NCBI GenBank assembly: GCA_038850735.1
Contig: JAWCLO010000003.1
Span: 62,001-126,000 of the forward strand
Direction: 5' to 3'
DNA length: 64,000 nucleotides
DNA from: Methanomassiliicoccales archaeon
GTDB taxonomy: Archaea > Thermoplasmatota > Thermoplasmata > Methanomassiliicoccales > JACIVX01
Program-made: the position numbers and the translations under genes
The notes under the pieces: generated by a model
What the model saw: the letters and a program-made list of their open reading frames with translations, nothing else
Database searches by the model: none
Told to the model about the DNA's origin: nothing
Part shown: positions 7,936 through 12,213 of the stretch, piece after piece
How positions within the stretch are numbered: position 1 is the first letter of the stretch
Layout: every line of letters begins with the position of its first letter

Positions 7936-9915
7936 TTATTGCGTGTCTATACTGGTAGGATTGTTTTGAGAGGAAAGGGGTGAATGAAATGCAAATTCCA
8001 CTTCTTTCCAAGCCTTGGCGAGCAGTTTCTGGTAGAACTCGACGTCAAAGCTTGCTGAGCTCGAAGTTGCATCAACAATCCATTTTCTTGCATCTACAAC
8101 GAGATACTCAATTTCCATACCTGGACTTACTGGGATATTGCTCTCAGAAAGTGCCTTCACCGCCGAGGCTTCAAGACAGCGTTTTGCATAATTGAGTGTG
8201 CTGATTCTTCTCCTGATTTTCATTTCTTGAGGATCAGCATTTGGAACAGCCTTAACATATTTATCATAAAGAGCCTCGAGGCTCGCTCTCATCATCAACA
8301 TTTTTCTGGCATCCTCCAAACCCGACATCAGCGTGAACATCTCCTCCTGCATCTTCTTTACATAGATCGGCACATCATCTCTTCTTGCCATTACGCCTCT
8401 TAATTTCATTTCTCCGTTTGATAGGCGCCCGAAATAGCGGTTATATGCTCCGCTCCCATCCTCCATCGGCAAAAAGACGATCCAGCTGTATTCCTCAATT
8501 TCTGTCGGTATCTCTATTTCCTTCTCAACTGCCTCTCTGAATGTTTCCACATTTTCTCCCTTCACCCAGAGGCAATCAACAATTCCATGAAGGACATCCA
8601 TTCCCATGGATTCCGCGATTTCCTTGACGCGGATCAGGATCTCTCTAGCAGCGGAGGTGATTCGCTCATGCACCTCTATGCTACCGAATTTTGCATTTCT
8701 GTACCCTGTATATCCAAAACAGGTCACGAGCATCCATTTGAGTATTGAATCAAGTTGGGAGTATCGTTTATTGAAGCGTTTCTTCTTTTTTGTCAAGAGC
8801 CGCATTTTGAGGAGAGGTTCAATAACTTCTGGCAGAAACCCCCTCACTTCTCCCTCAAGACTTTCTGGCGAGAGATTATACTTTACAATGATGAAGGGAT
8901 AAAGGGATGTGAAGTCAAGCTGATATACGTTCTCGTAGAGACCTGGCTCAGGTTGAAATATCATTCCTCCCTTATCCATTGCTTTTAAGTCTCTGAAGCG
9001 CCGTAGCTGCTCAGCATCACTCTTTCTGAACGGGATTGCGATTCCACGCCTGATGGCCTCGTAGACCTCGTATGAAGAGATCAGCGTGCCGGGAGTGAAT
9101 CTGGAAGTGAAATTTGGAGACAATCCAGTTAATCGTGATGCGAGAATCACACCATCCAACCCACTCTCTGAGTAAGTGAAACTGTTTTTCGTATCGATCA
9201 AAATGCGCCCTTGTGGTATGATTGAGCTCCCTCGGTAGTTGACTTTACCATAACTCCAGTAAGATTTGGAAGAGATTGCATGGTACCTTCCGCTTCTGCT
9301 CATCGGAACTTCAATTTTATAGATTCTACTCTTTCTCAGAATGATTGGGGTCCATAAATCTGCATATGGAAAGAGCATGATATCCGGATCTAAGGTATAC
9401 AGAAGCGATGAAAAGTCTGAGAGGATTTGTTTTTCTCTCCCCATCAGCACAGTCTTTTCTTCGCTCTCTACTTCAATCAAATGAATTTCGCAGGTCTGTG
9501 GGTTCCCGTCAACACGCAGGGTCATCGTTACCAATGGCATATCAAAGTCCAGAGAATAACGAAATTCTCCAGCAGCGGTGCACATGGGGAGACCGCGCTC
9601 AGCAATAAAACGATGATCCTTTCTCAGATCGACGTTGAAGAGTTCAGATGCGAATCTCGTCTGCTTTTCGATCTTTTCCGCCACATCAATAGGTGCGTAA
9701 ACCGCATAGCCATCGAGCGTTCCATAAATTGTCCTGAACGAACATTCTTCGACTTTGTATCTTGTAGCTATTGATTCTGCAATCGTGGAACCCAGATGTT
9801 TGTCATGGAAGTGGACAAAAAATGGTGGAGAGTAGCCTTCACAAACGTGCCTTGTCTTATTATCTTTAACCCATAGTTCAACGCATTTTCCGTATGAAGA
9901 ATCAAAGATCCACAT
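7936..9915 (-). CDS. Degenerate family B DNA polymerase (PolB2/Dpo2 type)
   Basis: A 659-residue family B polymerase, shorter than replicative PolB. Polymerase motif A is VYQLDFTSLYPF and keeps the metal-binding Asp. Motif B is altered, with VTCFGYTGY where NSxYGYxG is usual. Motif C reads HGIVDCLWV instead of YGDTDS, so the first Asp is lost and the second kept. The exonuclease motifs look degenerate: LDFDM at Exo I, and no Asp at the usual Exo II position. This pattern matches the archaeal PolB2 clade, considered inactivated or specialised for damaged DNA. In Sulfolobales the homologue Dpo2 is DNA-damage inducible. Its start overlaps the small upstream gene by 14 bp. Activity cannot be predicted with certainty. 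Confidence 0.88.
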   Translation of the reverse strand: MWIFDSSYGKCVELWVKDNKTRHVCEGYSPPFFVHFHDKHLGSTIAESIATRYKVEECSFRTIYGTLDGYAVYAPIDVAEKIEKQTRFASELFNVDLRKDHRFIAERGLPMCTAAGEFRYSLDFDMPLVTMTLRVDGNPQTCEIHLIEVESEEKTVLMGREKQILSDFSSLLYTLDPDIMLFPYADLWTPIILRKSRIYKIEVPMSRSGRYHAISSKSYWSYGKVNYRGSSIIPQGRILIDTKNSFTYSESGLDGVILASRLTGLSPNFTSRFTPGTLISSYEVYEAIRRGIAIPFRKSDAEQLRRFRDLKAMDKGGMIFQPEPGLYENVYQLDFTSLYPFIIVKYNLSPESLEGEVRGFLPEVIEPLLKMRLLTKKKKRFNKRYSQLDSILKWMLVTCFGYTGYRNAKFGSIEVHERITSAAREILIRVKEIAESMGMDVLHGIVDCLWVKGENVETFREAVEKEIEIPTEIEEYSWIVFLPMEDGSGAYNRYFGRLSNGEMKLRGVMARRDDVPIYVKKMQEEMFTLMSGLEDARKMLMMRASLEALYDKYVKAVPNADPQEMKIRRRISTLNYAKRCLEASAVKALSESNIPVSPGMEIEYLVVDARKWIVDATSSSASFDVEFYQKLLAKAWKEVEFAFHSPLSSQNNPTSIDTQ

Positions 9916-10138
9916 CGTTTTTCTCCAATCGTTTCATCATTTCAACGAAGACGGCAAAAACTGAAGCTTCCAGGGGATCGTCGAATGCGTAAAAGACGTC
10001 GCTCGAGTGCTTTTCAATCATCTCAGCAAGGCGCTCTGCATATTTTTTCTCGTCTTCCTTCAGTGCTCTGCCAGCTTTTTCCCACCGTTTGGCGGTTCGC
10101 TTGACTTCCATCCTTATACTCTCCGTACTCCTACCCAT
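9902..10138 (-). CDS. Small charged helical protein of the PolB2 operon
   Basis: A 78-residue protein without a recognised domain name. The first half is very rich in Lys, Arg and Glu and is predicted to be helical. The second half (VFYAFDDPLEASVFAVFVEMMKRLEKN) is amphipathic. The ATG is preceded by GGAGG at ideal spacing. It overlaps the polymerase start by 14 bp and the upstream RecA-like gene by 25 bp, so the three genes should be translated together. I infer a partner or regulator of the degenerate polymerase. It is not a tRNA-binding or HTH protein by any motif I can see. Confidence 0.85.
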   Translation of the reverse strand: MGRSTESIRMEVKRTAKRWEKAGRALKEDEKKYAERLAEMIEKHSSDVFYAFDDPLEASVFAVFVEMMKRLEKNDVDL

Positions 10139-10626
10139 GCGAATTCCTCCAGCTTTCTTTGGACGGGACGAGGGATTTTCTCTCGCACACGACGATCGAA
10201 TTCTGTCACGAAGAAAACGCGGTGAGCTTTTTCAGAGGCAGCTTGAATGAATTGATCGACTCTTGGCGAGTAAAGCAGAACGGTCGTTGAGGAGGCAAGC
10301 TCCCGCAGCAGGAGAAGCACTTGATCTGAAAGCTCTTCATGTTCTGAGAAGAGTGTTGGGTCGTATTCGATGAAGATAAATGAGTGGTGGTGTTCTTTGA
10401 GGATCTTTATCAGTTGAAATACTGTGAACGCCCGACGCACGTCGAACTCGCTAAATCTGCGATTGAGTCTGCTGAGTATTGTTGAATAGTTTCCAGAGAT
10501 ATAGAGAAGAAGATAATTCTGAAGATCAAGGTGTTCGTTGAATATGGTCAGCGCTACTTCTTCCGGCGCGATGAGGAGGTTGAACGCCCCTTCTTGAATG
10601 TAAATCGACTGCGTCGAGAGCTTCAT
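10114..10626 (-). CDS. RecA/RadA-like protein lacking a P-loop, PolB2 operon
   Basis: A 170-residue protein whose strand-helix pattern resembles a RecA-fold core. HSFIFIEYDP looks like a Walker B strand, and STTVLLYSP and HRVFFVTEF look like later core strands. No GxxxxGK(S/T) Walker A motif is present, so ATP hydrolysis is unlikely. It is the first gene of a three-gene overlapping operon with the small helical protein and the degenerate family B polymerase. A scaffolding role or a RadA-modulating role in damage tolerance is an inference. An AT-rich TATA-like stretch lies 25-40 bp upstream of the ATG. Confidence 0.8.
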   Translation of the reverse strand: MKLSTQSIYIQEGAFNLLIAPEEVALTIFNEHLDLQNYLLLYISGNYSTILSRLNRRFSEFDVRRAFTVFQLIKILKEHHHSFIFIEYDPTLFSEHEELSDQVLLLLRELASSTTVLLYSPRVDQFIQAASEKAHRVFFVTEFDRRVREKIPRPVQRKLEEFAWVGVRRV

Positions 10627-10649: not shown

Positions 10650-10664
10650 ATTTAAGAATTAAAA
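10650..10664 (-). promoter_or_regulatory. Putative TATA region of the PolB2 operon
   Basis: On the minus strand, TTTTAATTCTTAAAT lies about 24-38 bp upstream of the ATG of the RecA-like gene. This is compatible with a leaderless transcript. No clear damage-box motif is visible. Confidence 0.4.
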
Positions 10665-10890
10665 GGAAGAAGGGGAGAGTAAACCGAAAGTGCTTCTCCA
10701 TATGCGTGTGTATCTCATCACCTTCAAAAATAAATATTTCGATTCAAAAATTTTGAATGCCAGGCATCTCAAACCAGAAGCTGTAGTGGGTAAGGATTAT
10801 ACCATACCCGATGGAATTCCAAAGTTCAGTGAGCAGAGCTCTACAAATCCATTTCGCGTGTATCCCGGCGCCTTGTGGAATTGATGACTA

Positions 10891-11138: not shown

Positions 11139-11490
11139 TGAATACGAATCCTCAAACTGATTTCCATGAATCTGCTACTTCTGAGCCTCACCACGTCAAT
11201 GATTACTATCATATATCAATGCTGATCAAGCAATTTGTTCACCCAAAAATGCATAAATCAAAGACCGTTCAACGAAATCTAGATCAAGAGTATATCGAAT
11301 GAGGTAAATGCATCAAAATTTTGCACGCAGTTGATTATTCGCTGGACTCGGATTATCGAAAACAAAAGACGGATGGCGTGTGGAAGTCTCGTCGAAAATG
11401 GCTTTTATCATGAAACCTATCTTTTCAATTTGAGACGGGTCTCAAGAGAAATGCGAAGGCAATATTGCGGTAACCACTGAAGGATTGAAG
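11139..11490. other. Intergenic, no feature recognised
   Basis: About 350 bp between the frameshifted DUF3795 gene and the AlkD-like gene. No convincing coding frame, RNA gene or repeat was seen. An AAGGA sequence just before 11491 may serve as the ribosome binding site of the next gene. Confidence 0.5.
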
Positions 11491-12213
11491 ATGAACTCCG
11501 AAGAAAGGGAATATGAGAGCATTTTTAATGAATTGAAAAAGTTATGTAGGCCTGAAGCAGCAGAAGGCATGGCGCGATTTGGTATCAAATCAACCAACGT
11601 CTACGGCGTCTCAATTCCAAATCTGAGGAGAATGGCAAGAAAAATCGGAAGAAATCATTCTCTTGCCCAGCCACTGTGGTCCTCAGCGATCCATGAAGCG
11701 CGCATACTTGCGAGCATGATTGACGATCCAGATCAAGTGACAGAAAAGCAAATGGATTGCTGGATCAAGGATTTTGATTCTTGGGATCTCTGTGATCAAT
11801 GTTGCATGAATTTGTTTAGAAAAACAAGTGTAGCGTGGAAGAAGGCGATTGAATGGGCAGAAGAACGCACGGGGGAATTCGAAAGGCACGCTGGGTTCGC
11901 CCTGATGGCGTGCCTAGCGTGGTACGATAAGGAATCATCTGACGAGGACTTCTTGAGTTTTCTAACCGTAATAGAACAGGGAGCGGATGACGAGAGAAAT
12001 TATGTCAAGAAAGCAGTTAACTGGGCGCTGAGGAATATAGGAAAGCGAAATCAGTATTTGAATAGGCGAGCGATTGAAACCGCGGCAAAAATCGCGAAAA
12101 CAGATTCAAGAAGTGCTAAATGGATCGCTGCGGATGCGATTCGAGAATTGACAAGCGATGCTGTAAAAGGACGACTTGATATGATTCGCGACGCTGAAGA
12201 AGTTAGCCGATAA
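11491..12213 (+). CDS. DNA alkylation repair protein, AlkD-like HEAT-repeat family
   Basis: A 240-residue all-helical protein of the AlkD/AlkC family of HEAT-like DNA glycosylases. The family's N-terminal region is visible as FGIKSTNVYGVSIPNLRRMAR. The central segment WIKDFDSWDLCDQCC and the C-terminal ERNYVKKAVNWALRNIGKRN, which normally contributes to DNA binding, are both conserved. Characterised members excise N3- and N7-alkylpurines. The start is the ATG at 11491; an in-frame TTG at 11485 is possible. It stands alone, about 1 kb from the PolB2 damage-tolerance operon and divergent from it. Confidence 0.9.
   Translation: MNSEEREYESIFNELKKLCRPEAAEGMARFGIKSTNVYGVSIPNLRRMARKIGRNHSLAQPLWSSAIHEARILASMIDDPDQVTEKQMDCWIKDFDSWDLCDQCCMNLFRKTSVAWKKAIEWAEERTGEFERHAGFALMACLAWYDKESSDEDFLSFLTVIEQGADDERNYVKKAVNWALRNIGKRNQYLNRRAIETAAKIAKTDSRSAKWIAADAIRELTSDAVKGRLDMIRDAEEVSR

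Follow-up and report, generated by a model that had tools for sequence, protein, structure and literature searches.

Do three overlapping archaeal genes, among them a DNA polymerase with altered catalytic motifs, form a damage-tolerance machine peculiar to one lineage, or do they belong to a system already known from elsewhere? This question is raised by a locus of the window, i.e., the whole 64-kb stretch of DNA analysed here from a Methanomassiliicoccales archaeon, in which iRadA, PPB2 and PolB2 succeed each other in this order on the minus strand at positions 7936-10626. The host genome (1.66 Mb, 24 contigs, 98% complete) encodes elsewhere an ordinary PolB3, a canonical intein-bearing RadA, a RadB-like protein and two Orc1/Cdc6 genes.

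Organization of the operon

A sequence-only reading had described three overlapping genes at this place and strand, and its gene identities, PolB2 assignment and operon prediction were all right. The overlaps amount to 25 bp between iRadA and PPB2 and to 14 bp between PPB2 and PolB2, the latter being found in 28 loci in all. Since orthologous trios occur in many genomes, this is not a chance set of open reading frames. As placed by fold search, family model, tree and synteny, the trio is the published iRadA-PPB2-PolB2 operon type, first described in 2014 as an association of arCOG07300 with an inactivated RadA and PolB2 (Makarova 2014, PMC4104785) and later modelled as a pentamer of PolB2 with a PPB2 trimer and iRadA (Timinskas 2025, PMC11791011). 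PolB2 as an invention of this lineage was rejected, the trio being known from archaea and bacteria (PMC4104785, PMC11791011), and the window operon is one more copy of a known gene set. The earlier idea of a three-part damage-tolerance machine stands as a prediction made from sequence, stripped of its lineage-specific character. It is highly probable that the operon encodes a PolB2 mutasome, translesion role included.

The two small partners

The first gene, iRadA (10114..10626, minus strand, 170 aa), was delineated from its open reading frame, a fold model with PDB matches and an alignment with 27 operon homologues; it matched no family in Pfam or NCBIfam. Its AlphaFold model (pLDDT 83.4, pTM 0.79) resembled KaiC, Rad51, RecA and RadA structures in the PDB (E-values of 2e-5 and up, probability 1.0, TM-score by query of about 0.5-0.6), and the Walker A signature GxxxxGK[ST] was absent from both iRadA and its aligned relatives, in agreement with the RecA fold without Walker A that had been proposed. 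Judging from the model, iRadA is a RadA/Rad51 ATPase-core fold devoid of the N-terminal domain. A role as the recombinase of the cell was considered and rejected, the canonical intein-bearing RadA being encoded elsewhere in the genome.

The iRadA proteins of these operons are strongly diverged, with 20-43% identity outside a C-terminal motif and, for the window protein, about 20-24% identity to iRadAs of the same order. Their ends read Q-x-T-L-E-x-[FYS], Q-x-T-L-E being nearly invariant and the strict form Q-x-x-L-x-x-[FYW] being present in most of them. The alignment of these C-termini identified the peptide QRKLEEF (residues 156-162; 10141..10161, minus strand) as a predicted PCNA-binding, PIP-like peptide, and no PIP-like motif was found at the C-terminus of PolB2. 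This placement, with a predicted motif on iRadA and a PolB2 end without one, follows the pattern described in the 2025 study, where mutasomes carry the clamp-binding motif on iRadA or PolB2 and rarely on both (PMC11791011).

The second gene encodes PPB2, an arCOG07300-type protein of 78 aa (9902..10138, minus strand) recognized through alignments with operon homologues and a three-helix model, and likewise without family match in Pfam and NCBIfam. The single-chain model presents helices at residues 5-23, 28-43 and 55-76, which bears out the earlier description of a 78-residue helical protein. Residues M1, G2, R3 and R9 are conserved among the operon homologues and belong to an N-terminal arm, MGRSTESIR (10112..10138, minus strand), that is invariant or nearly so and corresponds to the MGRT motif plus R9 defined in PMC11791011, where the arm is placed between PolB2 and iRadA. 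The roles of both small proteins had been regarded as unresolved, a view superseded by this published structural role, in which a PPB2 trimer and iRadA are modelled with PolB2 (PMC11791011).

Conservation of the gene trio

Partners were searched with profiles iterated from the proteins of the window, as detection by regular expression alone had missed many PPB2, and synteny was scored on 93 loci with at least 1 kb available upstream of PolB2. Co-location of the partner genes with PolB2 elsewhere, set beforehand as the test of the proposed operon, was found: 68 of the 93 loci carry both partners upstream, adjacent and on the same strand, 16 carry one and nine carry neither, so that at least one partner is present in 84. 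Five of the loci with PPB2 alone come from one family of the class (f9), whose iRadA may have diverged beyond the reach of the profile. The nine PolB2s devoid of partners, mostly from Methanotrichaceae, belong to the same subclade as the PolB2 of the window, and at least one MAG (UBA475) harbors a full operon together with such a solitary PolB2. Given these nine relatives without either partner upstream, some PolB2s may do without the partners. Genes similar to orc1 were encountered beside PolB2 only in f9, and neither in loci of the own clade nor in the window.

The PolB2 polymerase

The third gene encodes a family B DNA polymerase of 659 aa (7936..9915, minus strand), assigned to PolB2 by the NCBIfam model NF004416 (854 bits for a cut-off of 516) and by the tree presented below. 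Pfam yielded weak DNA_pol_B pieces and nothing else, whereas sequence matches in the PDB, none of them named PolB2, are confined to the polymerase part, starting with residue 241. When read against the PolB3 of the same genome, motif A (DFTSLYP, 8896..8916, minus strand) is intact as LDFTSLYP with its catalytic Asp; motif B (KWMLVTCFG, 8713..8739, minus strand) exhibits a Thr instead of Asn; and motif C reads IVD instead of DTD (8575..8583, minus strand), HGIVDC replacing YSDTDS, with loss of the first Asp and retention of the second. The substitutions of motifs B and C were also seen in the PolB2 alignment. Survival of the motif A Asp and of the second motif C Asp had been noticed from the sequence, as had the alteration of motifs B and C, and both observations hold. 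The exonuclease motifs, previously called degraded, are better described as absent at the sequence level, the acidic pair of Exo I (DVE in PolB3) having no counterpart in PolB2 in the alignment of both proteins. D334, D447 and D314-[KR]315 are kept in 8/8 aligned PolB2s; the last of these, D314 K315 in the window (8971..8976, minus strand), is a D-(K/R) motif with an invariant D followed by K or R, and is the predicted contact of the PPB2 arm following the models of PMC11791011.

Loss of the first motif C Asp, of the motif B Asn and of the exonuclease residues is what would be seen in a catalytically dead PolB2 that is a subunit of the replication machinery with a structural or regulatory role, and this was indeed the first proposal for the family (PMC2527604). 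However, no aligned member lacks the motif A Asp or the second motif C Asp, and Dpo2 of Sulfolobus, whose motif C is of the IID type, is an active enzyme that extends mismatches and lesion-paired primers (PMC8764526). Dpo2 is moreover damage-induced, drives targeted mutagenesis and is needed for it (PMC7390963). A dead polymerase is therefore improbable, and the partial activity that had been suggested from the motifs also falls short of the proficiency with which Dpo2 extends mismatched and lesion-paired primers (PMC8764526). A search of the genome with the Y-family domain PF00817, which matched in 11/14 control genomes, retrieved nothing; as the genome is 98% complete, this absence is weak evidence. 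Since no Y-family polymerase domain was found, PolB2 may be the sole translesion polymerase of this genome.

Phylogeny and probable lateral transfer

The polymerase tree was built with PolB2 and PolB3 rows, PolB1 being left out and one spurious PolB3 open reading frame (branch length 10) being dropped. The 46 PolB2 rows formed one clade versus the nine PolB3 rows with an SH-aLRT of 100, and the window polymerase falls inside this clade, as had been anticipated. Its identity is 32-35% to PolB2s of its own order and about 50-55% to those of Methanothrix, Methanoregula and Archaeoglobales, with which the own genus groups, apart from its order. A constraint joining the genus with its order was disfavoured (AU p = 0.013, quick tree). 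Because the branch of PolB2 differs from that of the order of its host, the operon was likely acquired by transfer.

An acquired operon with a short iRadA (170 aa) only distantly related to that of the same order could also be an eroding remnant, co-transcribed by chance and functionless in the genus. Against such a decay, two genomes of the genus keep all three frames intact, with identities of 71-79%; the PPB2 arm, the DK motif, IVD and QxxLEEF are fixed amid divergence elsewhere; and the promoter element described below shows no mismatch in three genomes of the genus. Erosion is hence a very improbable explanation compared with a working PolB2 mutasome.

The promoter element

Upstream of iRadA lies a predicted damage-response promoter element, ACTTTCGGTTTACTCTCCCC (10672..10691, minus strand), defined as a 20-mer pattern whose core is conserved in operon and radA upstreams. 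It is followed by a TATA-like TTTTAA (10659..10664, minus strand) located 27 nt from the A of the element and 33 bases before the ATG, a spacing of about 26-28 nt being observed in relatives. The operon form reads ACTTTCR(N)5CTCYC, then the TATA-like box 27 nt on. The core ANTTTCR was present in 59/70 operon (iRadA) upstreams versus 10.8 expected in first-order random sequence, and the 20-mer pattern was found exactly once in each of three genomes of the genus, always at the PolB2 operon. Loose matches to the 20-mer (up to three mismatches) were discarded, being about as numerous as with the reversed control. In 61 genomes of the order, the fixed-spacing form ANTTTCR-N5-CYCYC-N13-WAW was matched 139 times and the reversed pattern 8 times; four sites of the former lie in the genome studied here, i.e., before the operon, at radA (C8:35228), after an arcS-like gene (C7:87678) and at C2:32346.

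Some genomes of the order have the element a second time, immediately before PPB2 (five loci), which suggests a second promoter inside the operon. Divergently from the operon, about 0.86 kb upstream, the window encodes an AlkD-type DNA alkylation repair gene (11485-12213, plus strand; PF08713, 111.6 bits), before which no damage element was found. No earlier report linking the element to PolB2 was found in the literature searched, and the consulted portions of PMC4104785 and PMC11791011 make no mention of the element.

radA and other genes preceded by the element

The same core precedes radA. Within the order, 44/50 distinct radA upstreams contain ANTTTCR where 2.7 would be expected, and most of these sites lie 87-95 nt ahead of the PGVGPA codon; outside the order, it was found in 17/19 radA upstreams, from Methanomicrobiales, Methanotrichaceae and others (1.5 expected). 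The counts 59/70 and 44/50 treat related sequences as separate, and their chance values are guides rather than probabilities. A matrix derived from the operon sites gave radA promoters a median score of 0.4 versus -9.3 for shuffles, and no upstream of polB3, orc1-1 or orc1-2 scored high (30 orc1-1 and 20 orc1-2 upstreams of the order). Self-regulation of Orc1 was tested as a candidate and not seen, with no high-scoring site before orc1-1 or orc1-2. That the predicted element is common to the PolB2 operon and radA is well supported by these upstream comparisons. The operon sharing its switch with radA, a little-studied archaeal SOS-like damage response is pointed to, and induction of the operon by damage is predicted.

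Further genes of the order preceded by the element encode an OB-fold RPA-like protein (two genomes), MCM, topoisomerase VI-B, Hef-like and Lhr-like helicases and TnpB; the element also occurs ahead of genes unrelated to repair, among them those for GyrI-like and PUA proteins. Five TnpB/IS605-type transposase genes bear it, as if these mobile elements were wired to the damage response of their host. A small conserved open reading frame of about 45-90 aa with the core WEEVYxxYGV, located after an arcS-like gene, is usually preceded by one or two damage-type elements, with a terminator-like hairpin close to its end. The protein was detected in 19 genomes at E-values below 1e-12, and the element precedes 10/12 copies that were not used for its profile (1.4 expected). 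The copy of the genome studied here (C7, near 87.6 kb) is eroded and looks frameshifted.

The presence of the element before non-repair genes, such as those for TnpB transposases and for GyrI-like and PUA proteins, and a distance to the TATA box that exceeds that of the Sulfolobales element by about one helical turn (PMC5817253), could indicate a general strong-promoter or BRE-type element rather than a damage-response one, an alternative that concerns the regulatory part of the proposal only. Yet the element is rare, with the four matches in this genome and the marked excess over the reversed control in the order; it is absent before polB3 and both orc1 genes, is found chiefly before radA, PolB2, RPA-like, topoisomerase VI-B, MCM and helicase genes, and shares its core with the motif of the UV-B-induced radA1 and top6B of Halobacterium (PMC2556686). 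A general element is therefore unlikely, and we retain the damage-response reading as a prediction. A broader claim, to which we give even chances, is that the PolB2 operon belongs to an SOS-like regulon of Thermoplasmatota, Methanomicrobiales, Methanotrichaceae and Archaeoglobales, whose element would be the UV-B motif of Halobacterium and possibly the ancestor of the Sulfolobales element, within one ancient damage response.

Proposed mechanism and significance

Upon damage, transcription of the operon would be raised by a regulator through the ACTTTCR element, followed by joint translation of the three overlapping genes. iRadA and PPB2, the latter trimeric in published models, would then dock on PolB2 in a putative complex, which the C-terminal QxxLxxF peptide of iRadA would tether to PCNA, and PolB2 would extend primers past lesions or mismatches without proofreading, lesion bypass being a prediction for this genome. 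The extender activity, the mutagenesis role and the pentamer enter this proposal from the literature, i.e., from Dpo2 of Sulfolobus and from the published models.

The locus adds one more PolB2 mutasome, perhaps the sole translesion route of a genome that yielded no Y-family polymerase. More is gained from the promoter element, which is precisely spaced and shared by radA and the PolB2 operon in several classes. To our knowledge, neither a regulon nor a regulator is accepted for the euryarchaeal damage response, and the shared element offers a directly testable regulon as well as a bait for its regulator.

Comparison with known systems

The window operon shares with the PolB2 mutasome (PMC4104785, PMC11791011) the gene set and order, the MGR(T/S)-R9 arm, the D(K/R) motif, the IxD motif C, the lost exonuclease, the inactive RadA fold and the PIP-like end on iRadA; it differs from it by a shorter and strongly diverged iRadA and by a Ser for Thr in the PPB2 arm. 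Dpo2 of Sulfolobales belongs to the same PolB2 family, has similarly lost the first motif C Asp, has no exonuclease and is damage-inducible (PMC7390963, PMC8764526), as is predicted for the window operon; Sulfolobales, however, possess in addition the Y-family Dpo4, of which no counterpart was found in this genome. The UmuC-UmuD'2-RecA complex (Pol V) is alike in its working, combining a translesion polymerase with a small oligomeric partner and a RecA-fold subunit (PMC11791011); however, its polymerase and small-partner families are unrelated, iRadA has no ATPase site and the window trio is not a member of this system.

Regarding the element, the damage-response element of Sulfolobales, ANTTTC, is bound by Orc1-2 (PMC5817253, PMC9738581) and has in common with the present one the six-base core and a position upstream of BRE/TATA. 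It lies at -44 to -39 from the start site, which corresponds to about 14-18 nt from the TATA box in Sulfolobus (worked out from PMC5817253), versus about 27 nt in the present case, and in the order of the host no high-scoring site was found before either orc1 gene. In Halobacterium, the UV-B promoter motif TTTCACTTTCA stands before the UV-B-induced radA1 and top6B (Boubriak 2008, PMC2556686); it was also noted before radA of Methanospirillum, and npa, a UV-B-induced transposase gene of Halobacterium, has a near match (PMC2556686). In both systems, radA is preceded by the ACTTTCR core and, downstream of it, a TATA box, and top6B and transposase genes are among the targets, but the second repeat unit of the Halobacterium motif is usually absent in the order of the host, where the PolB2 operon is added to the genes that carry the element.
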